Of a stretch of 64,000 bases of DNA, positions 4,919 to 24,350 are shown one piece after another. Source of the stretch: Desulfovibrionales bacterium (GTDB lineage Bacteria; Desulfobacterota; QYQD01); NCBI GenBank assembly GCA_028715605.1, contig JAQURM010000001.1:302001-366000 (forward strand), written 5' to 3'. A program made the position numbers and the translations under genes. The first letter of the stretch is position 1; every line of letters starts with the position of its first letter. Under the pieces are notes generated by a model. That model was not told the origin of the DNA. It saw only the letters and a program-made list of their open reading frames with translations, and did not search any database.

Positions 4919-6010
4919 ATGATCAAGCGCGATTATTATGAGGCACTTAATGTCCCGCGGGATGCTTCTGAGGAGGAGATAAAAAGGAGTTATCGCCGCC
5001 TGGCTATGGAGTATCATCCAGACCGAAACCCTGGAGATAAAGAGGCGGAAGAGCGTTTCAAGGAGGCGGCTGAGGCCTACGAAGTCCTTATGGATCCCCA
5101 GAAAAGGGAAATTTACAATCATTATGGACACGAAGGGCTACAGGGCGCTGGATTTCGGGGGTTCAGTGGATTTGATGACATATTCGCCAGTTTCAGTGAT
5201 ATATTTGAGGAATTTTTCGGCTTCGGGACTACAAGGCAAGGTCGAACTGCTTCCAGGCCGGGGGCCGACCTGCGCTATGATCTGAATATTTCATTTGCCG
5301 ATGCAGCCTTCGGCAGGGAAACAGAGATAGAAATAAGCAGGCTGGAAACCTGTTCGGTCTGCGGAGGCAGCGGTTGTAAAGAGAATTCTCGTCCCGGCAC
5401 CTGTCCAACCTGCCGCGGAAGAGGTCAGGTCGTACGCGCAGAAGGTTTCTTCCGTATCAGTACCACCTGCCCGCACTGCCGCGGCGCAGGGACCATCATC
5501 ACTAATCCCTGTGAAAATTGCGCCGGTAGCGGGCAGACACGAGTCAAAAAGAAAGCGGCCATTAAGATTCCTCCGGGTGTGGACACCGGATCAAGGCTTC
5601 GATTGCGGGGAGAAGGGGAAAGCGGTGAAAGAGGCGGTCCACCCGGTGATCTTTACGTAGTTTTACATGTTGAGCCCCATGATTTTTTTGAACGGAAGGG
5701 CTATGATATTTATTGTCATGTACCTATTCCCTTCACTCAGGCGGCCTTGGGCGACAAAATCGAAGTTACTACCCTGAAAGGAACTAAAAAAGTTACTATC
5801 CCTGAGGGCATACAATCAGGCGAAGCTATCGTCTTAAAGGGCGAAGGCATACCCTTTTTGCAAGGGCACGGGAAAGGGGATCAGATAATAGAGGTGATTG
5901 TCAACACACCGGTATCCCTTACCGCCCGTCAGAAAGAAATTTTATGCGAATTTGCCGAAATCGAGGCAGAAAAACACGCCGGTTTTTTTAAGAAAATATT
6001 CCGTAAGTAA
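4919..6010 (+). CDS. dnaJ: Chaperone protein DnaJ (type I Hsp40)
   Basis: DnaJ delivers unfolded proteins to DnaK and stimulates its ATPase. The full type I layout is present in 363 residues: J domain with HPD at residues 33-35, a Gly/Phe-rich linker (about 75-100), a zinc-binding region with four CXXCXGXG repeats ([32 protein letters not shown], about residues 143-205), then the two client-binding C-terminal beta domains. dnaK and grpE are not nearby, so the gene stands apart from the usual heat-shock operon. I see no HrcA or sigma-32-like site. moaC follows 18 bases later. Confidence 0.96.
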
Positions 6011-6028
6011 GGTAAGGATTTTCAAGCC

Positions 6029-6514
6029 ATGCAACCCTTAAGCCATTTTGATGCCCAAGGGAAGGCGGTTATGGTGGAGGTCGGCCATAAAGAGACCACC
6101 TATCGTTGCGCCCGGGCTGGCGGTTCGGTATTGGTAAACGCCGAAACCCTACAGTTAATTAAGGAAGGGCGGGCTGATAAAGGGGATGTCTTGGGGATAG
6201 CCCGTGTGGCCGGCATCATGGCCGCCAAAAAGACCAGCGAACTCATCCCCCTCTGCCATCCATTATTCATCTCCAGTGTACATATCTCTTTTTCCCTGGA
6301 TGAAACAAATAATAAGGTGTTAATCGAGGCCATAGTCAACAGCCAGGGCAAGACGGGCGTGGAGATGGAGGCCCTGACCGCTGTTTCTGTAGCCGCTCTG
6401 ACCATCTACGATATGTGTAAGTCAATGGACAAAGGTATAATCATCATGGACATTTGCCTCCAGGAAAAAGAAGGAGGGAAGAGCGGTCACTATAAGAGGC
6501 CGGTCACGGGATAA
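6029..6514 (+). CDS. moaC: Cyclic pyranopterin monophosphate synthase MoaC
   Basis: MoaC works with the radical SAM enzyme MoaA to make cyclic pyranopterin monophosphate, the first intermediate of molybdenum cofactor. The 161-residue protein shows the conserved block KGDVLGIARVAGIMAAKKTS followed by LIPLCHPLF, then TGVEMEALTAVSVAALTIYDMCK and the C-terminal GGKSGHYKR that closes the active site. The family usually has about 160 residues. moaA is not next door, although the following gene encodes a different radical SAM protein. It follows dnaJ by 18 bases. Confidence 0.96.
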   Translation: MQPLSHFDAQGKAVMVEVGHKETTYRCARAGGSVLVNAETLQLIKEGRADKGDVLGIARVAGIMAAKKTSELIPLCHPLFISSVHISFSLDETNNKVLIEAIVNSQGKTGVEMEALTAVSVAALTIYDMCKSMDKGIIIMDICLQEKEGGKSGHYKRPVTG

Positions 6515-6580
6515 GTCCGGGTGATCTGACTACACTGGAAGACTAAAGTCAGATTGGTACACGGATAACGCAGTATTATC

Positions 6581-9986: not shown

Positions 9987-11573
9987 ATGTACAAAATCCT
10001 TCATAAATATTATTTGCTTTGTCTGTCTCTTCTTCTCGTAATCACTCTGTGCTGGGGCTGCGCCGGGCTAAAGGAAAAACATCTGGCCGAACCGATGAAT
10101 AGCCGGCCACAGGGCAGACTCGTTCTGTTTTTGAATGGCCCGCCGCAGACCGGCCTGAATCTCACCTTTGGCCTCAGCAGCGTTGGCGTCTTCAGCGAAG
10201 AAGGCGGTTGGGAAGAGTTGCCGCTTAAACTTCAGCCGATAAACTCCCGGGGTATAATCGGACGCCAGGTCATCCTCGCGGAAAGCAAACTTGTGGCCAG
10301 GGCCTATGAAAAGCTGCGCTTTACCTTTGATCGGGCACAGGTCATTAAGGAAAATAAGGCCGCAGACCTTTCCATCCCTTCCGAAGGCCTGGAGATGGAT
10401 TTTAACTTCAGGATAGTCAAAGGGCAGGATACTTCAGTTTTTATCAACTGGGATGTAGAGGGGTCTATAGCGGATAATTATCTGTTTATCCCCGCATTTG
10501 CGCTAAAGACAGAGATTCGCGGGGTAAGAAGTCAACTGGCTTATGTAACCAATGAAGGGTCAGATAATGTAACGGTTATAAACAGAGAATGGGATGAGGT
10601 CGTTTCTACCATAGCGGTAGGAAAGGCGCCCTGCGGCTTGGCCGCCGGTACAAAAAAGACCAGGCTAAGGGTATATGTGGCCAACTCCAGGGCGAATAAC
10701 ATTACGGTCATCGATCCGACCCTAAATCAGGTCGAGCAGACCATACCTATATCATTTGGGAGACAACCCCGGGCCATTGCCGCAGCGCAGACCCGGTCAG
10801 GCAAGGAATGTCTGTTTGTGGCCAATTATGCCTCTAACAATGTCTCCATAATAGATACGGATAATTACGAAGAGATTGAACAGGTCAGGGTAGGCGTCGG
10901 CCCTATAGCCATAATCACTGACCCCCCCACGGACACCATATATAATATGAAAGGGCTGACGGCCGGTCAATTGAATCGCTGGAAGGATTATCGGGATCAA
11001 CACCTGCATATATATGTAGCCAACAGTAAGACCAACACCGTATCCGTTATCATTTTCAATACCTCTACACTGGCCGTGCAAGATACCCATACCTTAACCG
11101 TGGGCTGGAATCCGACGGCCCTGGATGTGGATGTAGAGCGGGGTAAGGTCTATGTAGCTAATAACGGCTCTGATACGATCTCAATTATCGACGCATTAAA
11201 AATCATGGATGGCTCCACCTCGGACGCGGTAACCACCTTAACCAACGTGGGCACGGGCGGGGTGGACATTGCGGTCGATGCCCTTTTTCTGAGGTTGTAT
11301 CTTTTAAAAGACCGGCCCGGTGAAGTGCTCTTCCTTAAGACTCCGGTGGAGGATATAGCTGCATCCTTGAAATCTATTATGACGCCCATTACGGGAGTGA
11401 TCGATGTGAGTGGGTTTCACCAATCCATGGCCTTGGACCCCGAAAGTAGAAAGCTTTATGTCGTGGATCGTGAAGATGGCATAGTTCACGTTATAGATAA
11501 GACTAGCCGGCGATTGATCAAGAATATTCCCGTGGGTAGCAAGCCTTATGAGATTACGATGGTTCCTTTTTGA
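9987..11573 (+). CDS. YVTN beta-propeller lipoprotein with DUF4382-like N-terminal domain
   Basis: A secreted lipoprotein of 528 residues. The signal peptide MYKILHKYYLLCLSLLLVI ends in a lipobox with Cys in CWGCAG. Residues about 40-175 look like a DUF4382-type beta domain (inference from pattern). The rest is a beta-propeller of about seven blades with repeated YVAN/YVTN motifs: YVTNEGSDN, YVANSRANN, FVANYASNN, YVANSKTNT, YVANNGSDT and a last YVVDREDG blade. Such propellers bind proteins or polymers at the cell surface. The ATG at 9987 has GGGAGGAGG four bases upstream; a TTG at 9963 would put that site inside the gene. It opens the envelope/cytochrome cluster; the barrel gene begins 17 bases later. 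Confidence 0.82.
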   Translation: MYKILHKYYLLCLSLLLVITLCWGCAGLKEKHLAEPMNSRPQGRLVLFLNGPPQTGLNLTFGLSSVGVFSEEGGWEELPLKLQPINSRGIIGRQVILAESKLVARAYEKLRFTFDRAQVIKENKAADLSIPSEGLEMDFNFRIVKGQDTSVFINWDVEGSIADNYLFIPAFALKTEIRGVRSQLAYVTNEGSDNVTVINREWDEVVSTIAVGKAPCGLAAGTKKTRLRVYVANSRANNITVIDPTLNQVEQTIPISFGRQPRAIAAAQTRSGKECLFVANYASNNVSIIDTDNYEEIEQVRVGVGPIAIITDPPTDTIYNMKGLTAGQLNRWKDYRDQHLHIYVANSKTNTVSVIIFNTSTLAVQDTHTLTVGWNPTALDVDVERGKVYVANNGSDTISIIDALKIMDGSTSDAVTTLTNVGTGGVDIAVDALFLRLYLLKDRPGEVLFLKTPVEDIAASLKSIMTPITGVIDVSGFHQSMALDPESRKLYVVDREDGIVHVIDKTSRRLIKNIPVGSKPYEITMVPF

Positions 11574-11590
11574 TAGGCTGAGGATAAGGG

Positions 11591-13879
11591 TTGGATGTTA
11601 AACTCTTAAAGGTGATGACCAGCAAAATGCCTGCCCTACGAGGATTGTGGAGGGTAGTTATAGCCTTGGTCGTGCTTATAACTTATCCTGGCCCATCTGC
11701 AGGGGCAGCAGGTATAGGCGGCACGGCCGATCTTCGTTATAACGCAACCAAACAAAAAAAGGATGGAGTTAAAACAAGCGACGGTTATAATTTTTCTCAA
11801 AATTATTATTTAAATCTGGCCGATGAAATTACGCCCGTGCTTTCTTATACTCTCAACTTCCGGGCCAATCACAACAAAACTTCTTCTACCCAGGACAGCA
11901 TAACCACAAAAACTTATAACCAGGGCGCTGAGCCACAGATTGAATTCAGCCTGCATAATCCTTATTATAATGCCAGCGCCGGCTATCAACGTACAGAGAC
12001 CTGGAGCGGCGCATCTTTGGCTGATGAGATACGGAAGACCGGTGATTATACCTATGCCCGCTTTGATATATCTCCACGTGATTTGCCGACACTGGCCTTA
12101 CAATGGGGCCGCAAACGGGATTTTGATTATCTTTCGCCCACGCGCCTCGATACAACTACCGACACCTATCTTCTAAATACAAGTTATGATTACGCCCCTT
12201 TCAGGTTTTACTATAATTATTACCTTACCCAGACCACAGATGATGCCCTCTCAGGCGATATCTATCGCACCGAGAAAGAGGCGCACACACATAATGGCCG
12301 GCTGGACTACGGCCAATCATTTTTTGACGGCAAGCTGCCGATTAACGCCAGTTACCAGGCCAATTATAACCGGAATATTACGGATATTTTTTCCACAGCA
12401 GCGGTAGTTACAGTAGAGCGGACACCTTTTCTGGGACTTCATAAACGTGATACGGCTTCACCTCCAACGCCAACGACACTCGCGATCGAGACGCAAAATG
12501 CCCTTATTGATGGGGACAAAAGCACGGCTATAACAACTATTGATGTTGGGCTCACTGGGTTGCCAAACACTGACCCCAACTCACATCTCTATCACAACAT
12601 AGGGCTGGAACTAACCAGTACCAAATCAGTGAAGACCCTTCGCATTTACACAAACATAGCCAAGACCTCTACTTTTAGTGATACACTGACCTTTACTGTT
12701 TACTCGGGTACCACGGCATCGAACTGGACCGCGATAACCGGCGCCGCTTCTCCGGCTCCGAGCACCTCGGTGACAGAAGACGTTTATTTTTACGAGGTAA
12801 GCTTTACGCCTACGACCGCCAGATTTTTCAAGATCGTCAATACTGACGAAGCTACACTTCCGGCCGGCATAACCAACATATACATTACGGAAATAGAGGC
12901 CTATGGTGACGAGACAGAAAAAACCGATATTACCGACCGGTTCGATCAGGGTCTGAATTTTAACACCAGTTTGAAGGCCAGGCCTGATTTGTCGGTTTCA
13001 TTCAGTTTTTACCTGACGCGCAATGATGAAGAACCATCATCCCTTCCCGAGGCGGCGAGTAATCTTTTTTCAACCATTTTCAGCAAGACCCAAAAAGGGG
13101 GGGAAGGCGCATCAAGCGGAACCACTACGCGGAGCTGGGGTCCTTCCGTTAACTGGCAGCCCTATACAAAGCTTATGACCTCTTTGCGTTTCCAGAGGCA
13201 GGACTCGTGGGATACGGAGGGGACCACCGATTCGGCATCCAATACATACGCCTTTTCTCTTAATTCTCCGCTTCTTGATACGCTGGATACCACATTTTCC
13301 GCGACACGCAGTGAGCAGTACAGTTTTTCCGAGAAACAGACCATAAGCGACTCCCTTCTCCTCAGTACGCTGGCTAAATTGTACGACGGCGTCAATATGG
13401 TTACAGACCTGAATTATACCACCTCGGAATCCTTTCAGACTAATCTCACTACAGATACCCTTTCCCTTAACGGTAATATAAATGCTATACTGACGCGCAG
13501 GCTAAGTGGAACATTTACATATGGTTTTAGCTGGCCTGCGCCTGGTACGGCCTCCAACCAGCAGTCCCTGGTCTTGACTTATCGCCCCAGTGCGCTATTA
13601 AATTTTATGGCCTCGCTTCAGACTGCCGATACAGGGACTACCCGTACTTTTGGCCAGAATTACAGTATAGATTGGCTTCCGGTTCCCGTACTTAATTTTA
13701 ATCTGAGCGCCCAGGAGACGGACTCAGGGGACACAAAAAACCAGACCCTTACCTTCCAGAATAGGTGGCAGATAAACAAGTATATGGATTTTCAGTTTAA
13801 TTACTCCTTTGGGCGTGTTAAATCATCGTCTGAAACAGATACCCATACCTGGGGATTATCCTTTACCGGACGGTTCTAA
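11591..13879 (+). CDS. Outer-membrane beta-barrel protein with an inserted discoidin-like domain
   Basis: A 762-residue exported protein. A signal peptide (hydrophobic core VVIALVVLITY) ends near an AGA-AG site. Most of the rest is alternating amphipathic strands rich in Tyr, Asn, Thr and Ser, ending in WGLSFTGRF with the terminal Phe typical of Omp85/BAM-inserted barrels. Residues about 290-442 differ: ALIDGDKSTA, a series of strands with VKTLRIYTN and FTVYSGTT, and an end ITEIEAYGDE, the pattern of an F5/8 type C (discoidin) domain, here inside the barrel as an extra loop. It could be the porin of a cytochrome conduit like MtrB/PioB or Omb proteins, but I see no family signature. The TTG start follows GAGGATAAGGG. 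Confidence 0.75.
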   Translation: MDVKLLKVMTSKMPALRGLWRVVIALVVLITYPGPSAGAAGIGGTADLRYNATKQKKDGVKTSDGYNFSQNYYLNLADEITPVLSYTLNFRANHNKTSSTQDSITTKTYNQGAEPQIEFSLHNPYYNASAGYQRTETWSGASLADEIRKTGDYTYARFDISPRDLPTLALQWGRKRDFDYLSPTRLDTTTDTYLLNTSYDYAPFRFYYNYYLTQTTDDALSGDIYRTEKEAHTHNGRLDYGQSFFDGKLPINASYQANYNRNITDIFSTAAVVTVERTPFLGLHKRDTASPPTPTTLAIETQNALIDGDKSTAITTIDVGLTGLPNTDPNSHLYHNIGLELTSTKSVKTLRIYTNIAKTSTFSDTLTFTVYSGTTASNWTAITGAASPAPSTSVTEDVYFYEVSFTPTTARFFKIVNTDEATLPAGITNIYITEIEAYGDETEKTDITDRFDQGLNFNTSLKARPDLSVSFSFYLTRNDEEPSSLPEAASNLFSTIFSKTQKGGEGASSGTTTRSWGPSVNWQPYTKLMTSLRFQRQDSWDTEGTTDSASNTYAFSLNSPLLDTLDTTFSATRSEQYSFSEKQTISDSLLLSTLAKLYDGVNMVTDLNYTTSESFQTNLTTDTLSLNGNINAILTRRLSGTFTYGFSWPAPGTASNQQSLVLTYRPSALLNFMASLQTADTGTTRTFGQNYSIDWLPVPVLNFNLSAQETDSGDTKNQTLTFQNRWQINKYMDFQFNYSFGRVKSSSETDTHTWGLSFTGRF

Positions 13880-13890
13880 GGGAGGTAGTA

Positions 13891-13956
13891 ACCGTTGACC
13901 GTTCACCGAAGAAACACTATTCAGGTTCTTACAGACAACGGTGACCGGACAACGGT
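13891..13956. repeat. Intergenic dyad, ACCGTTGACC word family
   Basis: Left arm 13891-13908 and right arm 13939-13956 pair at 16 of 18 positions. Each arm is made of variants of ACCGTTGACC/GGTCAACGGT. The same words recur inside the larger elements at 34788-34950 and 36108-36280. The element sits between the barrel gene and the next lipoprotein gene and runs through the region where a TTG-initiated reading of that gene would begin. Confidence 0.75.
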
Positions 13957-13981
13957 AAACAGATACGGGAGGGCATTATTG

Positions 13982-14587
13982 TTGACAGTGATACGTAAAA
14001 CTGATAAAAGCCAAAATTGGACAGCCGTTCTGTTGTCTTGTTTGTGCTTAACGCTTGTATTTTTGTCTGCCTGCGCACCCGGCCGAAAGACCTATTTGCG
14101 TTCAGGCGTTGATATTCGTCAGATTACAAAGGTAGCGGTTATGCCTTTTGAGAATCTGACAAACGACCCCTATGCAGGTAAAAAGGTGCAAGATCTCATG
14201 ATTACAGAACTTTTGTATAGGGGTCGTGTAGATGTTATCGAGCCCGGCGAGGTACTAAATGCTATACGGAGCGCCGGTATTACCTCCATCAGTGCCTTGC
14301 ATATTGAAAATATAAAGATTATTGGACAGCGGTTGCGGGTCCCGGCGGTAGTGGTGGGTTCAGTCCATGCCTTTGGAGTGGTGCGGGGTGTTACGATATC
14401 CTATCCCGAGGTAACTATTCACTGTATTGTGGTGGAAACTACTTCGGGGGCAATTATTGCTTCGACCCAGTACACGTCGGGCGGAACCAGCTTCTGGGGC
14501 AGGCATTTCAAGGCTGAAGGGCCTACCTTGGGCGAGACAGCCGAGGATGCGGTAAAGGTTATAGTAAGGAGTCTGTTTTTGCCATGA
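13982..14587 (+). CDS. CsgG/GNA1162-like lipoprotein (first of three paralogues)
   Basis: A predicted lipoprotein of about 201 residues: signal peptide with LCLTLVFLSAC lipobox, then a domain that opens with ITKVAVMPFENLTND and contains EVLNAIRSAGI and VVGSVHAFG. This alpha/beta layout with the PFENLT motif is shared by the CsgG, HfaB and GNA1162 (DUF799) outer-membrane lipoprotein families. The exact role is unknown. The frame is open from a TTG at 13895, but that stretch is the intergenic dyad described above; GGGAGGG at 13969 supports TTG 13982 (or neighbours at 13979 and 13988). It overlaps the next paralogue by four bases (ATGA). Confidence 0.75.
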   Translation: MTVIRKTDKSQNWTAVLLSCLCLTLVFLSACAPGRKTYLRSGVDIRQITKVAVMPFENLTNDPYAGKKVQDLMITELLYRGRVDVIEPGEVLNAIRSAGITSISALHIENIKIIGQRLRVPAVVVGSVHAFGVVRGVTISYPEVTIHCIVVETTSGAIIASTQYTSGGTSFWGRHFKAEGPTLGETAEDAVKVIVRSLFLP

Positions 14588-15165
14588 AGCGATGGGGGGC
14601 TTATCACTTTATAATTTGTCTTTTGCTGGCCTGTATATGCTTTGGTTGCGCCCGTACGCCTAAGCCGAATTTTTATATACGCCAGGACTTTGACTTTAGC
14701 GTTATCAAAAGGGTGGCCGTATTGCCCTTTGATAATCTTACCAATGATAAGTTCGCCTCTGAAAGGATCAGAAGACTGGTAATTAATGAACTTCTGGCCT
14801 CAGGTTTGATGGATGTAGTCGTAGCCGGCGATCTTTCGGCCACTCTTAAGACGGCTAAAGTGGAATCGGTAACGGCACTGCCTCCTAAGGAGATCAAAGA
14901 AATTGGCCGGGCATTAAATGCACAGGCCGTTCTTGCAGGCTCGGTCGAAAGGTATGAGGAATCAAAAGGTGGATCCTTTGCCGCCCCTGAAATTTCCATC
15001 TCCTTAGTTATGGCGGAGATCGATTCCGGATCCATTGTGTGGTCAGTAAGCGCTTCTACCGGTGGGGCAGGTTTTGGGACCCGCCATTTTGGGGCACGTG
15101 CAGATACGATCAGTGAGGCATCTGAAAAGGTAGTTAAAAAGGCGATCCGGACGTTGTATCCATGA
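14584..15165 (+). CDS. CsgG/GNA1162-like lipoprotein (second paralogue)
   Basis: A 193-residue lipoprotein: MKRWGAYHFIICLLLACICFGC gives the signal peptide and lipidated Cys. The mature domain begins IKRVAVLPFDNLTNDKFASER and includes a strand AVLAGSVERYEE and a C-terminal helix, parallel to the preceding gene at nearly every element. Its ATG overlaps the upstream TGA, so the two are translated together and may form a hetero-oligomer; CsgG-type proteins form rings in the outer membrane. Whether this protein forms a channel, a chaperone or a scaffold cannot be told. It is followed by a 123-base gap with an ATTCGAAAT word repeat. Confidence 0.78.
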   Translation: MKRWGAYHFIICLLLACICFGCARTPKPNFYIRQDFDFSVIKRVAVLPFDNLTNDKFASERIRRLVINELLASGLMDVVVAGDLSATLKTAKVESVTALPPKEIKEIGRALNAQAVLAGSVERYEESKGGSFAAPEISISLVMAEIDSGSIVWSVSASTGGAGFGTRHFGARADTISEASEKVVKKAIRTLYP

Positions 15166-15173
15166 GAGATAAA

Positions 15174-15203
15174 ATTCGAAATACGAATATCGAAATTCGA
15201 AAT
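15174..15203. repeat. Short intergenic repeat, ATTCGAAAT word family
   Basis: Three to four variants of the word ATTCGAAAT/ATACGAATAT stand in tandem. The words are themselves nearly self-complementary, so the stretch can fold or act as a dyad. It follows directly after the stop of the second lipoprotein gene. No other copy of this word family was seen in the window. Confidence 0.6.
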
Positions 15204-15287
15204 AAAATGTTGATGGTAGGGGTAGGGTTTGCCCTGCGTAATAGTCTCGTTAATCCAGACACTTCCAAGTAGTTATGAAACGGCCCT

Positions 15288-16334
15288 ATGTGGAAAATAT
15301 CACCCTTTCTTTTGACTCTCCTTATTTTTTTACCTTCCTGTGCCGGACGGGCGGCATTTGATAGCGATGCCAGGCTGCCGCTGGCCCGAAAAGCTATAGC
15401 GCTGATGCCTTTTGAGAACCTTTCTGATAAGAAAGAGGCCGTGGAAACGGTTATGCCCTATATACGGCAGTGGTTTAAAGATGCCGGGGCTGAAATAGTG
15501 CCTGATGAAGTAGTAGAAAGATTTCTGTTGCGGCATGAAATTAGAAGCACCGGGCGTTTCTCAGATAAAATTATTCATAGTATGGATCGCGGGCTTGGAG
15601 CCACTTATATTCTGCTGGGAAGCGTAAATTCATGCTCTGATGAACCGCTACTATCCATCTCTACCCGTCTGGTATCCGTGCCGGATGGGAATATTGTCTG
15701 GGGCGGACATGCCAGCCGCAGTGGGGAGGAATTTAAAACGGTCCTTGGCCTGGGTAAAATTACGACACTAGCTGGGCTCTCCCCTATAGTAATTGAGGAA
15801 CTTTTTTCTCCTCTTAAGCGGTTTACACCGCCGGATAAGGCGGAACAAGAGAAATGGCGTTTCCGGGTGGCGGTAATGCCCTTTGGGAACCTGAGCCCGC
15901 GCAGGGATGCCGGGGTTATCGCCACGTACCTATTCCTTGCGGGCATAGCGCAAAAAACGGGTTGGGCGACTGTTGAATATGGCCAGGTCTGGAATACCCT
16001 GGTTTCAGAGAATTATCCGTATCGGGGAGAACTGGACTATGATACGTTGCAGGCGCTGGGCAAGAAACTTGAAGTCGATGGCATCCTGCTCGGAACAGTG
16101 GAAAAATATACCGAAGATCTGGGCGCCAAAGGGCAGGTTATCCCGGAGGCAGCTATCAGCCTGCGTCTTTTATATGTTCCTAATAAGACCATCATCTGGG
16201 CAGATCGACTGGGAGCTACGGGCGAAGACGATATCTTAGTCCTGGATTGGGGGCGAATAAGAACGGCCGATAAGGTTGCCGAAAAGGTAATCAAAAAATT
16301 GGTACAGCGTTTGCCTTATATTGAGGTTAGGTAG
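15288..16334 (+). CDS. Tandem-domain CsgG/GNA1162-like lipoprotein (third paralogue)
   Basis: A 348-residue lipoprotein with signal peptide MWKISPFLLTLLIFLPSC. It carries two copies of the domain found in the two genes upstream: the first begins AIALMPFENLSD (near residue 35), the second VAVMPFGNLSPR (near 195). Each has the strand-type LLGSVN or LLGTVEKY and a C-terminal arm with TIIWAD or NIVWGG. This looks like an internal duplication, so the cluster holds four copies of the domain in three genes. Function is unknown; context suggests an envelope assembly around the barrel and cytochromes. A repeat element separates it from the parvulin gene. Confidence 0.78.
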   Translation: MWKISPFLLTLLIFLPSCAGRAAFDSDARLPLARKAIALMPFENLSDKKEAVETVMPYIRQWFKDAGAEIVPDEVVERFLLRHEIRSTGRFSDKIIHSMDRGLGATYILLGSVNSCSDEPLLSISTRLVSVPDGNIVWGGHASRSGEEFKTVLGLGKITTLAGLSPIVIEELFSPLKRFTPPDKAEQEKWRFRVAVMPFGNLSPRRDAGVIATYLFLAGIAQKTGWATVEYGQVWNTLVSENYPYRGELDYDTLQALGKKLEVDGILLGTVEKYTEDLGAKGQVIPEAAISLRLLYVPNKTIIWADRLGATGEDDILVLDWGRIRTADKVAEKVIKKLVQRLPYIEVR

Positions 16335-16337
16335 TGT

Positions 16338-16444
16338 CCATCCGGAAACTAATGTTCCCGGCTTCACGCTTTCAGCGATCAGCAATTAGCTGTCAGCAAA
16401 AACCTAAGACAAACAACACATTAAGCTGAATGCTGACGGCTTAG
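16338..16444. repeat. Intergenic dyad, AGCTGA word family (short form)
   Basis: Begins with CCATCCGGAAAC and continues with TCAGCGATCAGC-type words answered by AAGCTGAATGCTGACGGC on the right. The same left end and the same AGCTGA words occur at 34788-34950 and 36108-36280, but those copies hold an extra inner dyad that this one lacks. It separates the third lipoprotein gene from the parvulin gene. Confidence 0.7.
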
Positions 16445-16471
16445 TAAAGGGCCAAATTTGGGGAGTTAGAT

Positions 16472-18151
16472 ATGTCACTGTTTATATTGTTACGAAACTA
16501 TATGATTATCGGGGTGCTTTTGTTGCTTGCGGCCTGTAGCGGGTTCATGATCTCAGGTGAAAAACCCGTGGCCTGGGTGGACGGCGTGCCGGTAACTGAG
16601 GGGGATTTAAAAGAGGCGTTAAAGATAACGCATCGCACTGAGGCCGTACGGCCGGAGGAGCATCTCGACCTTATGGATTATGTTAATAAATTGATCGATG
16701 ACCGCCTGATTGTCCAGGAGGCCTATCGTATGGGGCTGGATAAGGATCCCTGGGTGCAAAATAAGATGCACGAATATAACCTCAGGGAATCAGTGGTACG
16801 CCTCTATAAAGAAGAGGTTCAGGACAGGGTTTGGGTAAGCGATGACGAGATGCGGCGATTTTACAATGAGCAGATGGAGGAGACACATATTCGCCAACTA
16901 ACGGTGGGAACTGAGGAAAAGGCCCTGAATATACGGGACCAGATCGAAGCCGGTTCTGATATGGCCACTCTCGCCCGGGAGCATTCTATCGATATGTTTA
17001 AAGATAAGGGAGGAGACCGGGGGTTTTTACGCCGATGGCAACTCCCGGAATCAGTTAGAGATATAGCCTTCTCTCTTAAGGCTGGCCAGCTACCACCCGT
17101 AATTAAAACTCCCTCCGGCTATCAAATAATAAAAATTGAGGAGAAGAAGCCGGCACCGGAGAAAAGTTTAGAGGAGATACGGCAGGTTGCAGAAAAACAT
17201 TTTCGTAAGAAGAAAGAAGAGGCGCAAGGTCAGGAAGTTTTAAAGAGATATCACAAGCAGGCCGATATAGTCATAAGCGAAGATTTGTTGGCAGAATTGC
17301 CGGTTTCTATTGACGCCGCAAGGGATGAAAAGTGGGCCAAGGATGAACGGCCTATTGTAAAAATTGGGGAAGAAATATTGACGGTGCGCGATTTCTATCA
17401 ACAGCTAAAAGACATACCGGATTCTAAATTAGTTGCGGATAATCCGCCGGACTTAAAGAGAAAGTTTGTAGATAACTGGATCGACCGCAAACTTGTGGAT
17501 GTAGTTGCTTTAAATCGGCATTATGAACAAGACGCAGATTTCGGTCGCATGCTTAAGTATTATGAAGAATACCTACTAAAGAAGTTGTTTGCCCAGAAGG
17601 TTATATACCCACAGATAAAGATTTCAGATGAACTCCTCAAGGATTATTACGATAAACACCGTGACAAGTATCTCAAGCCGGTTCAGTACCGGATAAGGCA
17701 GATTACTGTAAGTGATGAGGCGCAGTCCCGGGCCATCCTGGAACAACTGCGCGGGGGAGCTGATTTTGCCTGGCTGGCAAAAAATAAGTCCGAAGATGGC
17801 CTGGCTGAGAAGGGAGGAGACAGGGGCTGGATTTCAGAGGATAAATTGTTTTTTTTATCTAAGGCTGTTTCTGCCCTGAAGGTTGGAGAGAACAGCGATG
17901 TGCTTTCAGAGGGCGGTGCGTATTATATCGTAAAGTTGGAGGCCAAGTCCGATGTTGACTACGAGGACCTTGAACAAATAAAGGACGTCGTGCAAAGGGA
18001 TTATGTCAAGGAAAACTATGAGAAATTATGGACGGATTATGCCAAGGAGTTAAGACAGGATGCTGAAGTCAGGATGAACGATCCCTTTATCCAGGAATTG
18101 AAAGAACGATTCCTGCCTACTGTGAAATCTTCTACTCTTGACAAGCAATGA
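16472..18151 (+). CDS. SurA/PrsA-like peptidyl-prolyl isomerase lipoprotein, two parvulin domains
   Basis: A 559-residue lipoprotein (lipobox LLLLAAC, Cys22). An N-terminal helical chaperone part (residues about 30-130) is followed by a parvulin domain (about 138-228; IRQLTV, GGDRGFL, GYQIIKIEEKK), a long helical linker, a second SurA_N-like segment and a second parvulin domain (about 403-490; IRQITVSDE, GGDRGWIS, YYIVKLE). It would help fold exported proteins, most plausibly the neighbouring barrel and cytochromes. Parvulin or cyclophilin genes beside large outer-membrane cytochrome genes are also known from Geobacter. Its stop overlaps the ATG of the 26-haem cytochrome, which supports a joint role. 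Confidence 0.88.
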   Translation: MSLFILLRNYMIIGVLLLLAACSGFMISGEKPVAWVDGVPVTEGDLKEALKITHRTEAVRPEEHLDLMDYVNKLIDDRLIVQEAYRMGLDKDPWVQNKMHEYNLRESVVRLYKEEVQDRVWVSDDEMRRFYNEQMEETHIRQLTVGTEEKALNIRDQIEAGSDMATLAREHSIDMFKDKGGDRGFLRRWQLPESVRDIAFSLKAGQLPPVIKTPSGYQIIKIEEKKPAPEKSLEEIRQVAEKHFRKKKEEAQGQEVLKRYHKQADIVISEDLLAELPVSIDAARDEKWAKDERPIVKIGEEILTVRDFYQQLKDIPDSKLVADNPPDLKRKFVDNWIDRKLVDVVALNRHYEQDADFGRMLKYYEEYLLKKLFAQKVIYPQIKISDELLKDYYDKHRDKYLKPVQYRIRQITVSDEAQSRAILEQLRGGADFAWLAKNKSEDGLAEKGGDRGWISEDKLFFLSKAVSALKVGENSDVLSEGGAYYIVKLEAKSDVDYEDLEQIKDVVQRDYVKENYEKLWTDYAKELRQDAEVRMNDPFIQELKERFLPTVKSSTLDKQ

Positions 18152-20190
18152 AGGCTGATGATATGGTGCAGCGCATGAAAAATTCGAAGCACGTCCGCTT
18201 GCGGCGAAGCTGTCTTTGGTGTGAGACTCGGAAAATAAAATTTAACGCCATAAGCATTGCAGTATTTGTACTAGCGATCGCCCTTATCGTTTTAAGTTGT
18301 GCTGAAAGTCCAACCAGACCTCAGCGAGGTTTTGCTCCGAAGGCATGCCTGGACTGTCATGGCAAGAAATTCGATGATCTCAAAAAACCTTATGTCCATG
18401 GTCCGGCGCTCAAAAAAGACTGCGAAGTATGCCATGATCGCCATGGTAAGATACCCATCAGGACATTCAAGAAACCGGGTGCCGCGTTGTGTTATACCTG
18501 CCATGCCGCGGAAAAACTGGGGATAAGTGAAAAAGTTGCGGTTCATACCCCTATAAAAGAAGGCAAATGCATACCCTGTCATGCCCCACACGCCGGTGAC
18601 AATAAGCTCTTCTTAAAAAAGCAGGGTAATAGCCTTTGCTTTGATTGCCACGAGGAGACGCTATTTAAAGGCGCTAAAGTCCATGCCCCGGTAGAAAAGG
18701 GGTGCTCGACCTGCCACAGACCTCATGCCTCACCCCAGGCCGATCATCTTGTAAAACCTGAGACAGAGCTTTGCCTCGGTTGCCATAACTCAGGGAGCGC
18801 CTCTTTCCGGGCAGCGCATCAGAACTATCCGGTGGAAAAGGCGCATTGTACGGGATGCCATGACCCGCATGCCACAGCCCATCCTAAGTTACTAAGGCCT
18901 TCTATACATAAGCCTCTGGCGGAAAAAAGGTGTAGTTCCTGCCACCGTCCATCTGCAGATAAAGAGCCGCTAAAGGCGGTGGCTCAGGATGGCGCTCTTT
19001 GCTATTCCTGCCACGAGCAGGTCGCCAAGCGATTTGAACAGGTCTGCCGGCATAAGCCCATACAAGAGGGTAAGTGTCTGGTCTGCCATAGTCCCCATGC
19101 CACGGATTTTGTCCCCCAGTTGGTTAAGGATGTTAACTCTCTTTGCTTTGCCTGTCATAAAGAGAAGACAGGCTCTTTGAAGGCAGGTGTGCCCCATGCG
19201 CCACTCAAAAAGCAGGGTTGTACGGCCTGTCATGATGCGCATGCTGCGGCTAATAAGCAATTGCTCAAAATGGAAAAAAAGAAGCTCTGTCTCGGGTGTC
19301 ATAAGAGGGCGGAGGAAGAGCTAAGCGCAGCTTATATACATAAACCTCTTCTAGCTGATCAGTGCACGACCTGCCACAACGCCCATGGATCCAATTATAA
19401 GGGAATGCTGAGCGTATCTCCGGAGGCCCTGTGCTACAGCTGTCATAAGGAGGCCAGAGATAAATTTTATAAGGCATACGTTCATACGCCCGTAAGTAAA
19501 AAGAATTGTACAGGATGTCATAAGCCGCACGGAGCGAATTATAAGTCTCTTCTCAAGCATTCCAGGACTGATATTTGTTTCTCCTGTCATGTAGAAATGA
19601 AGAATATAGGTATAGAAGGCAAGGGTCACCCGCCGTTTATGAGAAGAGAATGCCAGGGCTGTCATGACTCCCATGCCAGTAATTATCCTATGCAGCAGAT
19701 GATCCCACCTTCTGAACTCTGTCTGAAGTGTCATAAGAATTTCGTGGCCAAAGGAAAAGATGCCCAGGCCGTACATCAACCCATAAAGGAAGGGAACTGC
19801 ATTAGCTGCCATAGCCCGCACGGTACAAAACTTGCCAGTTTGCTCCTCAACCAAACCGGCGAGCTGTGTCTGTCCTGCCATGGCCAGCTAAAGGAGGCGT
19901 TGCGTTCGGCTCGGGGGCATATGCCGGTCAAGCAAGGCAATTGTCGCGGCTGCCATCTACCCCATTACGGAGAAGAAAAAGGACTTTTGGCCAATCGTGA
20001 TCCATTCCTCTGTCTCCAGTGCCATGCCGCCGATAAACCTACTAATATCAAGGCGCATCAAGGGTTGCTCCAAAATACCAGCTTATGTCTGGAGTGTCAT
20101 GAACCACATATAGCCGCTAAAGGAAGTTTGTTGAAGAAAAATGAGCACAGTCCTTTTGCCAAGAGAGATTGCAGGCTGTGCCATAAATAA
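18148..20190 (+). CDS. Giant c-type cytochrome lipoprotein with 26 CXXCH motifs
   Basis: A 680-residue multihaem cytochrome of the doubled-CXXCH repeat type. I count 26 CXXCH haem sites, spaced as alternating pairs: CxxCH-x-PHA followed some 25-30 residues later by LCxxCH, about 13 repeats. An N-terminal hydrophobic stretch ends in a lipobox-like VLSCAES (Cys51), so the protein may be anchored in a membrane, possibly the outer one. The N-region before it is unusually long and basic; ATG codons at 18163 or 18175 are alternative starts. Numerous His residues between motifs can act as distal ligands. Translation is coupled to the parvulin gene (ATGA). It most probably carries electrons between periplasm and outside. 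Confidence 0.9.
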   Translation: MKADDMVQRMKNSKHVRLRRSCLWCETRKIKFNAISIAVFVLAIALIVLSCAESPTRPQRGFAPKACLDCHGKKFDDLKKPYVHGPALKKDCEVCHDRHGKIPIRTFKKPGAALCYTCHAAEKLGISEKVAVHTPIKEGKCIPCHAPHAGDNKLFLKKQGNSLCFDCHEETLFKGAKVHAPVEKGCSTCHRPHASPQADHLVKPETELCLGCHNSGSASFRAAHQNYPVEKAHCTGCHDPHATAHPKLLRPSIHKPLAEKRCSSCHRPSADKEPLKAVAQDGALCYSCHEQVAKRFEQVCRHKPIQEGKCLVCHSPHATDFVPQLVKDVNSLCFACHKEKTGSLKAGVPHAPLKKQGCTACHDAHAAANKQLLKMEKKKLCLGCHKRAEEELSAAYIHKPLLADQCTTCHNAHGSNYKGMLSVSPEALCYSCHKEARDKFYKAYVHTPVSKKNCTGCHKPHGANYKSLLKHSRTDICFSCHVEMKNIGIEGKGHPPFMRRECQGCHDSHASNYPMQQMIPPSELCLKCHKNFVAKGKDAQAVHQPIKEGNCISCHSPHGTKLASLLLNQTGELCLSCHGQLKEALRSARGHMPVKQGNCRGCHLPHYGEEKGLLANRDPFLCLQCHAADKPTNIKAHQGLLQNTSLCLECHEPHIAAKGSLLKKNEHSPFAKRDCRLCHK

Positions 20191-20281
20191 AATAAGTGAC
20201 AACCCCCGTATTTAATATGGGACGAATGGCGAAATTTCCGCGATACCCGGAAAGCTTATGAGATGGAGAGATGTTAACAAT

Positions 20282-21520
20282 ATGAGGGTTAAGTTTGCGA
20301 TATGGCCTTTGTTGACCTTTTTTGCCTGGATACTTACAAGTGAGGCGCTGGCGGCAAGGCCTTCGGCTGATACCTGCTATAGCTGCCATAGCCAGTTAAA
20401 AAAGCAATTTGCGCAGAAAATCATACATGATCCTGTGGCCAAGGGCCAGTGCATGGCCTGTCACAATCCTCACGCCGCGAACCAGGATAAGTTTTTAAAG
20501 GATGACATAAATAAGCTCTGCTATAGTTGCCATAAAGGATTGGCACAGGAACTGGGGCGCGGGTACGTTCATTCCGTTCTTTTGCATGATAAATGCACGC
20601 GTTGTCACAGTCCCCATGCCTCTGCACACAGAAATCTACTGGCCAAAGAAGCAAATAGCTTATGCCTGGACTGCCATGAGGGCGTAAAAAAGCAGCTTAC
20701 CTTTTCCTTTTCCATACCGCCCTTCCGGGAGAAAAAGTGCCTTTCTTGTCACCAGCCCCATGTCTCCAGGGAGGAAGGGTTGGTAAGGAAAAATATAAAT
20801 CGTCTTTGCCAGGATTGTCATGGTATTAAGTGCAAGAGTAAGGGGGTTTCTCTGGCCTTTGTCCTCCAGAATGCCGACTGCACCAGCTGTCATAATCCCC
20901 ATGCCTCAAACAAGAAAGGGGTTTTCAACCCTATAGCCCATCAGTCTTTTGTCGATCAAAAGTGTGAGGCATGCCACGATACGATTGTAGCAAATAAGCC
21001 CCTTACAACAAAGTTGACCGGCCGGACATTATGCCTTGATTGCCATGGTAATAAGAAGGATATGCTGTCTAAGATATATGTTCACGCCGGAGGAGGTAAG
21101 GCCTGCACCACCTGTCATAATCCTCATGCCTCGCAGGATAAAGGCCTTATCTGGAAGAAAGAGAAATGGCTCTGCATCTCCTGCCATGCCGACACGGACC
21201 GGCGTGAGAAGGCATCCATCGAGAAACAAAAGGGCATCCGCTGTACGGCTATCAAGGAGGGAAGATGTTCCCATTGTCATGATCCACACGCCGCAAATAT
21301 GCCCCGCTACTTTAAAGGCGACGGAGTTGATATCTGTATGAGTTGCCATAAAAAAGAGCACAGCTTATCGCATCCCCTCAGGGAAAAATCTATAGATCCG
21401 CGGACTAACCAGCCGACTTATTGCACTACCTGCCACGGGATGCACACTGCTGAAAACAAATTTATGCTTTATTTCGACCGCAAAAAGGAATTGTGCATAG
21501 AGTGCCATAAAAGAGATTAA
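20282..21520 (+). CDS. Multihaem c-type cytochrome with 16 CXXCH motifs
   Basis: A periplasmic cytochrome of about 412 residues with 16 CXXCH sites by my count, again in the paired doubled-CXXCH layout (CMACHNPHA, CTRCHSPHA, CTSCHNPHA, CTTCHNPHA, CSHCHDPHA). Signal peptide MRVKFAIWPLLTFFAWILT ends at ALA-AR; no lipobox, so it should be soluble. ATG 20282 gives a standard signal peptide; an ATG at 20258 adds eight residues. It lies 91 bases after the 26-haem gene and is clearly related to it by duplication or shared repeat units. A natural guess is the periplasmic partner that feeds electrons to the lipidated cytochrome. Confidence 0.9.
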   Translation: MRVKFAIWPLLTFFAWILTSEALAARPSADTCYSCHSQLKKQFAQKIIHDPVAKGQCMACHNPHAANQDKFLKDDINKLCYSCHKGLAQELGRGYVHSVLLHDKCTRCHSPHASAHRNLLAKEANSLCLDCHEGVKKQLTFSFSIPPFREKKCLSCHQPHVSREEGLVRKNINRLCQDCHGIKCKSKGVSLAFVLQNADCTSCHNPHASNKKGVFNPIAHQSFVDQKCEACHDTIVANKPLTTKLTGRTLCLDCHGNKKDMLSKIYVHAGGGKACTTCHNPHASQDKGLIWKKEKWLCISCHADTDRREKASIEKQKGIRCTAIKEGRCSHCHDPHAANMPRYFKGDGVDICMSCHKKEHSLSHPLREKSIDPRTNQPTYCTTCHGMHTAENKFMLYFDRKKELCIECHKRD

Positions 21521-21532
21521 GGAGCTTGCGGT

Positions 21533-22492
21533 ATGGCTTTGATGTTTGGCAGGATCAGGCTTTTATTAATTGTCCTCGTGTTGTGTAGCATTATGTCGGT
21601 TTTTTTCGCACTTGATTTTTGTTTTGCCCAGCAAAAGACCCCCCTTGCCCTCCAAGTTGGTTTTACACAGATGGAAGGCATGGGCAAATTGAAGCAGATC
21701 CAGGGACTTTTTTGGTCCCCTGCCCAAAATAGACTGCTTGTGACTGATACCGGCAATAACCGCCTGCTTTTCTTTGGCGATAGTGAGGGGAAATTCCGGT
21801 TCCTGTCTGAATTTAAATCCGACAAAATGGCGTTACCCATTAGCGCTGTAGAGACCAGCCGGGGGACGATTATAGTCATCGAGCGGGGCGCTCAGGGAAT
21901 TATCAGTTATAATCCTGAGACCGGCGAGAGACGCAGCATTTTTACGGATGGATTTCCCGATGCTTCATCCTTTTGGCCTACTCGCCTGGCCTTAGATGAT
22001 AAGGACAATCTCTATGTCGTGGATCAAGGGAACCAGAGAATTTACATTTTTGATGGCAATCTAACGTATAAGCTCCATATAAATCCTCCTGAACCGACGT
22101 TCACGGGATTCTCAGCGGTAGCAGTTGCTAAGGACGGTAACATAGTTGCGCTTGAGGCCCGACGAGGTATAGTCTATCTCTTTGATAAAGAAGGGAAGAT
22201 TATCCGCCAGGTTAGTAAGCGCGGAGATCTTCGCGGAGAAACTGAATTTCCAGTGGACATAGCTGTGGATGGACAGGGGCGCATTTACGTCCTGGATTCT
22301 CACCGGCATCAAATCGTCATTCTGGACCGAAACGGGAACTGGCAGGGAGAGATAGGCGAAAAGGGGTGGAAGGAGGGGAAGTTCATATTCCCCTATCGGG
22401 TAGAAGTGGCTTCTGATTATCGGTTGTTTATAGTTGACGCCGATAATAATCGCCTACAGGTCTTTATCCCGGCCGGCCGTTTGGAGCAATAG
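21533..22492 (+). CDS. Secreted NHL-repeat beta-propeller protein
   Basis: A 319-residue exported protein: signal peptide with core LLLIVLVLCSIMSVFFA ending FCFAQQ. About six NHL-type blades follow, seen as LLVTDTGNNRLLFF, NLYVVDQGNQRIYIF, RIYVLDSHRHQIVIL and LFIVDADNNRLQVF. NHL propellers bind proteins or nucleic acids; outside the cytoplasm they usually serve as docking parts. NHL-repeat genes are regular neighbours of outer-surface cytochrome genes in Geobacter and relatives. It starts 12 bases after the 16-haem gene, with AAGGAG before the ATG, so it shares its transcript. Confidence 0.87.
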   Translation: MALMFGRIRLLLIVLVLCSIMSVFFALDFCFAQQKTPLALQVGFTQMEGMGKLKQIQGLFWSPAQNRLLVTDTGNNRLLFFGDSEGKFRFLSEFKSDKMALPISAVETSRGTIIVIERGAQGIISYNPETGERRSIFTDGFPDASSFWPTRLALDDKDNLYVVDQGNQRIYIFDGNLTYKLHINPPEPTFTGFSAVAVAKDGNIVALEARRGIVYLFDKEGKIIRQVSKRGDLRGETEFPVDIAVDGQGRIYVLDSHRHQIVILDRNGNWQGEIGEKGWKEGKFIFPYRVEVASDYRLFIVDADNNRLQVFIPAGRLEQ

Positions 22493-22607: not shown

Positions 22608-23228
22608 ATGGATACGTTCAAAAAAATCGGGATGCTTGCAGTTCCACTCATTGCAGGAGGGATTTTGTTGGCTGGCGGGTGTCAGAAAAAGGAAGACATA
22701 AAAACGGCGCAAGAGAAGCCGGCAATGCCTTCTGAACCGTCTATGCACGAACCTGCTCCAGACGGGCAAGAGCAGATGCCCCCGGCCATGGGAAAACAAT
22801 TCCCGAAGGAGATGCTTGAAGCTATCCAGAGGGGGGAACAAAAACCGGAGTCAAGACCGGTTACGAAAGGCCACGCACCGGTGGTTGTCCCCCGGGAGGT
22901 ACAGGGCAAATGGAAAGCGGTGGTGATAGCCGTGGTTAATAAACAAACGAACGAAAAAAAGGATTATGTGGTGGGGATTAACAAGGATTTCGCACTTCCT
23001 AATAGTAAGATAAAAATTAAGGTGTTAAATTTTCTGCCTAATTTTTCCATGTCTCCCCAGGGTATAACATCACTTTCTAATGAATCTAAAAACCCGGCTG
23101 CGCAGATAATCGTTTACGAAGACAATAAGAACGTTTTTGAAGGCTGGCTGTTTGAAAAGTTTCCCCAGGTACATCCTTTCCAACACAAGGTATATGCCAT
23201 CATGCTGAAGAATCAAATGCCGATTTAG
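22608..23228 (+). CDS. DUF2155-like lipoprotein
   Basis: A 206-residue lipoprotein: signal peptide with IAGGILLAGGC lipobox, then a low-complexity Pro/Glu/Met-rich linker (residues about 30-95). The C-terminal part (about 100-205) fits the DUF2155 pattern: strands with WKAVVIAVVNKQT, a KIKVLNFLPNF block and GWLFEKFPQVHPFQH. The domain has no assigned role. Good GGAGG ribosome-binding site 11 bases before the ATG. It stands alone between a hairpin and a convergent cytochrome, still in the envelope cluster. Confidence 0.75.
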   Translation: MDTFKKIGMLAVPLIAGGILLAGGCQKKEDIKTAQEKPAMPSEPSMHEPAPDGQEQMPPAMGKQFPKEMLEAIQRGEQKPESRPVTKGHAPVVVPREVQGKWKAVVIAVVNKQTNEKKDYVVGINKDFALPNSKIKIKVLNFLPNFSMSPQGITSLSNESKNPAAQIIVYEDNKNVFEGWLFEKFPQVHPFQHKVYAIMLKNQMPI

Positions 23229-23345: not shown

Positions 23346-24350
23346 TTAGTGATTGCGGTGACAGGTACGACAAGAGCCTGAAGAGGACATGTTTTCGTCG
23401 TAAGCGAAGCGGAGGATACTCGGATAGGGCGAACCGTGGGCACGGTGACAGGACAGACACATTACCACCTCATTGCCTGACGAGACGTTCACTTCTGACG
23501 GATTTTTTGCGCGATCGAGATACAGTCTGGCAACGGGCACAACCGGGTTATATTCCGTATAACCGGAGAATTCCCCGTCCGGGATGGGGATGTCTGTCGG
23601 GTGTCTTAACCAGGGGCCCTTGCCTCCGATGCCGGCCGCACCGTGAAAGTTACCTGTACTGCCGCCCAAGGCATCGCTGCCATGGCATTGACCGCATAAA
23701 TAGCTTATGCTCTTTGGATCACGCCAGTTATCAGACCCCTGGTATTCGTTATGCTTATCAGCGGCAGTCTTGTATTCCCATTTGTAGCCGTCTTCGTTCA
23801 TTTCCCTTCCGGTAACCCCCGACAGAAACCGGTAACTTGTCGCTACCGTCTTTCCATCGGACGGTTTGGCAGAGTTGTAGGCATGGTGGGCTCCCTTCAT
23901 GGCTTCGCGTGGTGAGATATTGGTACGGTCGCCATGGCAGCCATATTTACCGGCACACGTGAGCCGGACGCTGGTGAAGTTCGAGGAGGGGTCGTTTAGT
24001 CCCGGCGCATTAATAGTATCCGGCCCTATATCCGTAAACCCATCCACATTATGGCCATGGCGGCTACCGTGAAGGCCGACATAATAAAAATTGCCACCGG
24101 CTAAGTCCGTCCCGGTATTGTGATAAACATAAGGGGTTGATCCGGCCTTGCCGGTATTGCCTGCCTGTATGGCCGTGTGGCACCGGGTGCAATGCCCTGA
24201 ACCTTGATCCTGTGTGCCTTTCATAACTACGGCCTTGTAGGAGGCATGGCAGTTGTCACAATTGGTATCTAAAGCCATTGCACCGGGACTTACCCATGTG
24301 AAATAAGTCCATAGCACAGGTATTATCAACCAGCGGGATGCCGTTTTCAC
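23346..24350 (-). CDS. Periplasmic multihaem cytochrome c with an atypical CX5CH site
   Basis: A 334-residue exported cytochrome. Signal peptide MKTASRWLIIPVLWTYFTW ends at AMA-LD. Five CXXCH motifs are present (CDNCH, CTRCH, CGQCH, CLSCH, CRTCH) plus one CAGKYGCHG with five residues between the cysteines, a non-standard haem-site candidate. The middle part is rich in Gly, Asn and aromatic residues, unlike the two repeat cytochromes upstream. It is read on the opposite strand, convergent with the DUF2155 gene. Role unknown; electron transfer in the periplasm or at the surface is the reasonable inference. Confidence 0.85.
   Translation of the reverse strand: MKTASRWLIIPVLWTYFTWVSPGAMALDTNCDNCHASYKAVVMKGTQDQGSGHCTRCHTAIQAGNTGKAGSTPYVYHNTGTDLAGGNFYYVGLHGSRHGHNVDGFTDIGPDTINAPGLNDPSSNFTSVRLTCAGKYGCHGDRTNISPREAMKGAHHAYNSAKPSDGKTVATSYRFLSGVTGREMNEDGYKWEYKTAADKHNEYQGSDNWRDPKSISYLCGQCHGSDALGGSTGNFHGAAGIGGKGPWLRHPTDIPIPDGEFSGYTEYNPVVPVARLYLDRAKNPSEVNVSSGNEVVMCLSCHRAHGSPYPSILRFAYDENMSSSGSCRTCHRNH

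Follow-up and report, generated by a model that had tools for sequence, protein, structure and literature searches.

Genes for a large outer-membrane barrel and for multihaem cytochromes in one row raise the question of whether they encode a conduit, in which electrons cross the membrane through the barrel, or machinery that exports and assembles something conductive. Such a row lies in a window of 64,000 nucleotides (the whole stretch of DNA analysed here) from contig JAQURM010000001.1 of the Desulfovibrionales assembly GCA_028715605.1, and an earlier note, made from the letters alone, had suggested that it could be a new conduit type. The same gene set has been published as the osc cluster and apparently also as OetABI. 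It is therefore no new type of conduit: the kind of cluster is already known and the window cluster is ordinary in kind, its copy being a clear variant with defined candidate substrates.

Composition of the gene block

Nine genes with short gaps or overlaps fill positions 9,987–22,492, and coordinates together with Pfam and NCBIfam matches (a YVTN/YncE-type propeller, LpoB-like lipoproteins, two parvulin domains, Paired_CXXCH cytochromes and an NHL propeller) place all parts named in the earlier note on this one strand. The overlapping stop and start codons that it described are present at two junctions (14584/14587 and 18148/18151), the remaining gaps being 12–137 bases. Upstream, the block is bordered by an adenylate-kinase-like gene that runs on the opposite strand. 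No RNA was found with Rfam, and PADLOC recognised no defence genes among the three proteins examined.

The genes are named here after their osc counterparts, OscE–G being our own assignment by position. The block opens with an OscD-like lipoprotein (9987..11573, +), a seven-bladed YVTN/YncE propeller with a DUF4382-like N-terminal stretch (a sub-threshold match in Pfam/NCBIfam); its longest form starts at TTG 9963, ATG 9987 being the likelier start. It is followed by the OscE-like outer-membrane beta-barrel (11591..13879, +), by two OscF-like lipoproteins in tandem with 37% identity (13895..14587, +, with a true start probably further downstream; and 14584..15165, +, with an LpoB/PelC fold and a Pfam LpoB match at E 3.1e-7), and by an OscG-like lipoprotein (15288..16334, +) in which profiles match two PelC/GNA1162-like domains. 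The OscH-like lipoprotein (16472..18151, +) is a putative foldase whose two parvulin PPIase domains match PF13145 in two stretches (E 6.9e-34). The OscI-like (18148..20190, +) and OscJ-like (20258..21520, +) cytochromes carry exactly 26 and 16 CXXCH motifs. A six-bladed NHL propeller (21533..22492, +; PF01436, E 6.7e-19), in the GSU2493 position by comparison with the locus of Geobacter H2geo, is the last member of the conserved block. By their translations, six proteins carry a lipobox: the opening propeller, the three small lipoproteins, the PPIase and the 26-haem protein (IVLSC before AES). The 16-haem protein, which has an ordinary signal peptide, and the NHL propeller seem to be exported in the usual way. 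Counts and signal sequences thus agree with the lipidated 26-haem and soluble 16-haem cytochromes of the earlier note. Three features were missing from that account: a DUF2155 lipoprotein directly downstream, which is a possible extra member (22608..23228, +; PF09923, E 9.6e-8), a convergent OmcS-fold cytochrome and a conserved jelly-roll domain inserted in the barrel.

The three small lipoproteins had been called CsgG-like. This label was dropped, as the best matches are LpoB, PelC and GNA1162, related to CsgG in fold only, and two of the three are the tandem duplicate. The second OscF-like copy matches 5t11/5t10 (E about 6e-7) and PelC 9h80 (E 0.011), and the OscG-like protein gives profile matches to 4hrv (GNA1162, E 1.8e-8), 5t11 (1.5e-6), PelC (8.6e-6) and 5t0z (1.8e-5). 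PelC is an oligomeric ring lipoprotein of a polysaccharide export apparatus; since lipoproteins of this type belong to export apparatus, we count them in favour of an export function.

The barrel itself matches no Pfam or NCBIfam family. Its AlphaFold2 model (44 sequences, mean pLDDT 88) has 28 strands, which by our own strand assignment fall into 11, an insert (residues about 273–441; 12407..12913, +) and a further 17. Going by the modelled strands and the Pfam matches of relatives, the insert is an F5/8 type C-like jelly-roll. It is kept in 44 of the 44 aligned sequences; relatives match F5_F8_type_C (4/44) or F5_F8_type_C_2 (5/44), and there is a weak CBM32 match (E 0.0075). The insert is predicted to lie on the outer face, provided that the N-terminus of the barrel is periplasmic, an orientation that agrees with the longer loops on that side. 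Judged by the number of modelled strands, the barrel would be wide enough to accommodate a haem chain, as the earlier note had envisaged for its pore. MtrB has 26 strands, two fewer than modelled here, and to our knowledge no counterpart of the inserted domain.

Conservation and kinship with osc and Oet clusters

Among 395 genomes of the phylum, a search with the barrel turned up relatives in 35, including four out of four congeners, and a profile of 44 barrels matched 51 of the 395 at E <= 1e-20. A scan of named genomes yielded 80 loci, 57 of which include the barrel; for a collection scan with the 26-haem proteins, an alignment of 14 was too variable and one of four sequences was used. The typical order, in loci of up to 20 kb, is cytochrome(s), propeller, barrel, LpoB/PelC-like lipoprotein, two-domain lipoprotein, double-parvulin PPIase, 26-haem protein, 16-haem protein and NHL propeller. 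The full order from propeller through barrel, lipoprotein(s) and PPIase to the 26-haem gene occurs in 50 of the 57 barrel-bearing named loci, which places the gene set far beyond chance; the neighbourhood is widely kept in other genomes, so that the lack of conservation which would have spoken against the earlier note is not seen. A 26-haem gene is followed by a 16-haem gene in 73/80 named loci, a propeller is present in 54/80, and 73 of the 79 large cytochromes of relatives have exactly 26 motifs. The order recurs across phyla, including Geobacter H2geo (L043/L097), the published reference. In congeners and in three further loci (L103, L128 and L137), a DUF2155 gene likewise comes after the NHL gene, and both this kind of gene and OmcS-fold cytochrome genes recur beside related clusters.

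In two loci (L121 and L132; Rokubacteria, Acidobacteria), the block is split, with the 26-haem, 16-haem and NHL genes kept apart from the barrel, lipoproteins and PPIase. The two modules can therefore be separated, as would be expected if the block merely co-transcribed two independent parts, a secretion portal and a 26/16-haem wire that spans the periplasm towards other conduits. We hold this to be improbable, as such splits are rare and the PPIase adjoins the 26-haem gene in 75 of the 80 loci.

A tree of the 26-haem proteins, made by a quick method, has three groups. In clade I (Geobacterales, Desulfobulbaceae and others), the cluster is linked with an upstream OmcS; the hexahaem protein preceding one such cluster (L048) is homologous to OmcS (6ef8, E 1.8e-60), and proteins like it precede the cluster in the other clade I loci. 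In clade II (Desulfobacterales and others), OscG is often followed by an additional lipoprotein. Clade III (support 98) unites the window genus with many Nitrospirota and has OscF duplicated; its Nitrospirota usually carry genes for the X- and Y-type cytochromes treated below directly after the 16-haem gene. The OscF duplication is seen in the window genus, in Nitrospirota-type clusters and in one further genome (G004). In other clades, additional cytochrome genes lie within or next to osc clusters (L042, L103, L115, L117, L127–L129, L131 and L137); in clade II loci, a 5-haem gene separates OscG from the PPIase, and L042 has a 12-haem gene.

The best-described relative is the osc (omcS-companion) cluster of Geobacter sulfurreducens. 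The claims of Shen et al. 2025 on it are given here as reported in two citing papers (PMC13194489 and PMC12977616). According to these, the proposed roles are folding for OscH, secretion for OscE/F/G and morphology for OscD, all with respect to OmcS nanowires and not to a simple conduit (PMC13194489, with the general roles also in PMC12977616), GSU2495 is oscI, the 26-haem protein, and GSU2494 is oscJ (PMC13194489). H2geo is listed there as a holder of the eight-gene "nanowire secretion" block GSU2500–2493, with a GSU2501/OmcS-like hexahaem gene directly upstream of the block in all Geobacter holders (PMC12977616). The window has the same eight gene kinds in the same order, the gene-by-gene comparison being made with H2geo, and doubled-CXXCH cytochromes and ring lipoproteins are normal members there too. 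From this shared order and the published Osc gene roles, we identify the window set, by sequence, as an osc cluster of a variant clade. Unlike the Geobacter cluster, the window has the OscF duplicate, the lipidated 26-haem protein and the possible extra DUF2155 gene, and it carries no OmcS/OscC hexahaem gene upstream; an X-type cytochrome stands downstream in convergent orientation instead.

The set is probably also the OetABI cluster, defined as porin, periplasmic cytochrome and cytochrome lipoprotein in the sulphate-reducing partners of ANME and often found beside OmcS/OmcX-like genes (Murali et al. 2023, PMC10553843). The likeness lies in a barrel, a lipoprotein cytochrome and a periplasmic cytochrome, likewise in sulphate reducers. 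The source MAG of the published OetI query (C00003106, our locus L138) has the same order of lipoprotein, PPIase, 26-haem, 16-haem and NHL genes. Its contig, however, ends before the barrel, so the window barrel is only probably OetI, even though the barrels of neighbouring Desulfobacterales loci are homologous to it. The OetABI clade has the extra lipoprotein after OscG, whereas the window has the OscF duplicate.

OmcS-fold cytochromes beside the block

The convergent cytochrome (23346..24350, −), a candidate filament-type or accessory protein, has five CX2CH motifs and one CX5CH motif rather than six CX2CH. The CX5CH motif (CAGKYGCH, 23934..23957, −) stands at the OmcS haem 3 position in the alignment and motif table. 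The protein belongs to a family, here called X, with nine genes in the window genome, the paralogues ranging from five to seven CX2CH, and an additional copy, perhaps an assembly duplicate. On contig C12 of genome G000, two apparently identical X genes (5461–6567 and 19289–20395) lie 13.8 kb apart, either a true duplication or an assembly artefact. As a single sequence, the window cytochrome gave only chance matches in the PDB, and its AlphaFold2 model is poor (pLDDT 52), so that a family profile was needed. This profile matches OmcS (6ef8, E 2.8e-25) and, at E 3.7e-4, 7tfs, which we take to be OmcE, and a profile–profile comparison with the OmcS family (hhalign) gives a probability of 99.9 (E 3.6e-37). 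By homology along the chain, the protein at 23346–24350 and its eight paralogues are assigned the OmcS fold. A close OmcS is absent from the genome, where an OmcS search returned only the distant X homologues (best E 2.2e-11).

The third haem site of the X proteins mostly reads CX5CH (C[AG]GxxGCH); a few members have CX4CH or CX3CH there. As this CX5CH/CX4CH site aligns with OmcS haem 3, X members that would be counted as 5-haem proteins are probably hexahaem. If haem is attached there, the conserved CX5CH is an unusual attachment motif. A literature search for CX5CH or CXXXXXCH found nothing, a weak result as the spelling varies, and a search for a dedicated CX5CH haem lyase brought up one ResB and two CcsA-type genes.

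The CHxxH after haem 1 is kept in eight of the nine X proteins of the window genome. The inter-subunit ligand of OmcS is presumably His16, the last H of its CHTMH. In OmcS filaments, one haem ligand per subunit comes from the neighbouring subunit (PMC6584659, PMC9473688). The protein at 23346–24350 and its congeners have CHASY in place of CHxxH, and from this loss of the histidine we suggest that the cluster-adjacent X protein may cap or dock instead of polymerising.

Barrel and X/OmcS-type cytochromes go together across genomes: such cytochromes (E <= 1e-10) are found in 49 of 51 barrel-positive genomes and in nine of the 344 without the barrel. Fisher's test gives 1e-50 before correction for relatedness, and kinship inflates this value. 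Nonetheless, the association is robust, as the two occur together in 29 families.

A second cytochrome family, Y, with seven to nine haems, has no relative in the PDB. A 7-8-haem family (YLDSAHGNTSYGV...), likewise with no PDB relative, has five paralogues (L051:4460-5635, L053:4739-6058, L053:11303-12565, L054:4084-5394 and L057:7448-8605), some of which adjoin X genes here and in Nitrospirota osc clusters.

Function and setting

We consider it probable that the block exports and assembles an OmcS-like filament and connects it electrically to the periplasm. Subunits of the OmcS fold would be exported by Sec, loaded with haem in the periplasm and folded by the double-parvulin lipoprotein OscH. 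They would then pass the outer membrane through a portal composed of the 28-stranded barrel OscE, the two PelC/LpoB-like OscF copies and OscG, with the propellers shaping the filament, and the lipid-anchored 26-haem and the 16-haem cytochromes would wire the filament base to the periplasm. In the window genus, the filament subunits would be the nine X paralogues, not OmcS. What is observed is the identity and order of the genes, their clade, the homology of the families and the co-occurrence, while the folding, secretion and morphology roles are those proposed for Geobacter and would apply here by analogy; we infer how the portal is arranged, that the 26- and 16-haem proteins act as wiring and that the X cytochromes are what is exported. 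A literature search found no tested role for the 26- and 16-haem proteins of osc clusters. Against this explanation stand the opposite strand of the adjacent X gene and its lost CHxxH histidine.

The main competitor is the porin–cytochrome conduit of the Oet description, in which the barrel holds the haem chain of the 16-haem and/or the lipidated 26-haem protein, electrons cross the outer membrane through it, and the PPIase and lipoproteins only help with assembly. The OetABI definition quoted above speaks for it, as does the size of the barrel. A Foldseek search with the barrel model gave the MtrB chain of 6r2q as best PDB match (E 7.8e-11), but the TM score is only 0.37–0.42, many TonB-dependent receptors and pilus ushers follow closely, and MtrB_PioB (PF11854) has no match anywhere in the genome. 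For the modelled barrel, this result indicates a size class similar to that of MtrB, not family membership. The set resembles MtrCAB in its large barrel and multihaem partners, and differs in the inserted jelly-roll, the ring-type lipoproteins and the foldase; what the earlier note had seen as an outer-membrane electron-transfer set unlike MtrCAB and PioAB is, in this respect, borne out. The 26-haem protein matches chain A of 6r2q (E 2.7e-18); the label of that chain, 'Cystathionine beta-synthase', was set aside as a mislabelled record, the entry's title being that of the Mtr complex. Lipidation also bears on the conduit: the 26-haem protein has a lipobox in 32/32 members of clade III and in 21/21 of the Desulfobacterales-type clade II, which favours it, yet most members of clade I, the OmcS clade, have an ordinary signal peptide with no lipobox (an automatic count of 7/22 includes four with the cysteine inside the signal core). 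With the Geobacter reports favouring nanowire folding and secretion, and with the insert lacking an MtrB counterpart that we know of, we regard a conduit as rather unlikely.

The PelC homology of the lipoproteins and the carbohydrate-binding-like F5/8C insert could also suit the export of a non-cytochrome cargo, such as a polysaccharide. This is very improbable, since no glycosyltransferase or synthase was recognised among the proteins of the block by Pfam/NCBIfam, the two giant cytochromes are near-constant members and co-occurrence with OmcS-fold cytochromes is very strong.

Filament export being the preferred reading, its setting is of interest. The window genome, which carries dsrA, is congeneric with G120 and with PowLak16_MAG11 (class QYQD01; accession prefix QYQD01; locus L060). 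In the available parts of PMC12246660, members of this class are said to have a full sulphate-reduction pathway and are suspected of partnering Ca. Methanoperedens as sulphate reducers, and a 26-haem/PPIase operon is reported for 'Desulfobacterota class QYQD01' of Lake Cadagno. The class and the 26-haem gene adjoining a PPIase gene are shared with the window. As described in those parts, that operon consists of four ORFs; haem counts of 12 and 26 are given, the PPIase too is said to contain haem motifs, and no link is drawn to the osc/Oet set, to a barrel or to OmcS-fold paralogues. The window thus places a complete cluster of nanowire-assembly type, with candidate filament subunits, in a suspected partner class, and the open question of how a Ca. 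Methanoperedens partner takes up electrons gains a list of named genes. More tentatively, QYQD01 and many Nitrospirota could possess a second class of OmcS-fold conductive filaments, made of X proteins with the CX5CH/CX4CH third site, by an OscF-duplicated machine with a lipid-anchored 26-haem base, the electrons in QYQD01 coming from Ca. Methanoperedens in freshwater sulphate-dependent methane oxidation. This is a possibility against which we would still lean. The osc/Oet clades differ in lipoprotein number, 26-haem lipidation and linked cytochrome, which bears on the choice between a conduit, a secretion machine and a combination of the two. At another locus (L052:1666-7970), genes for two 12-haem cytochromes and for cytochrome-c biogenesis (ResB/CcsA) stand in a row with an X gene, an arrangement that resembles the second gene cluster reported for class QYQD01.
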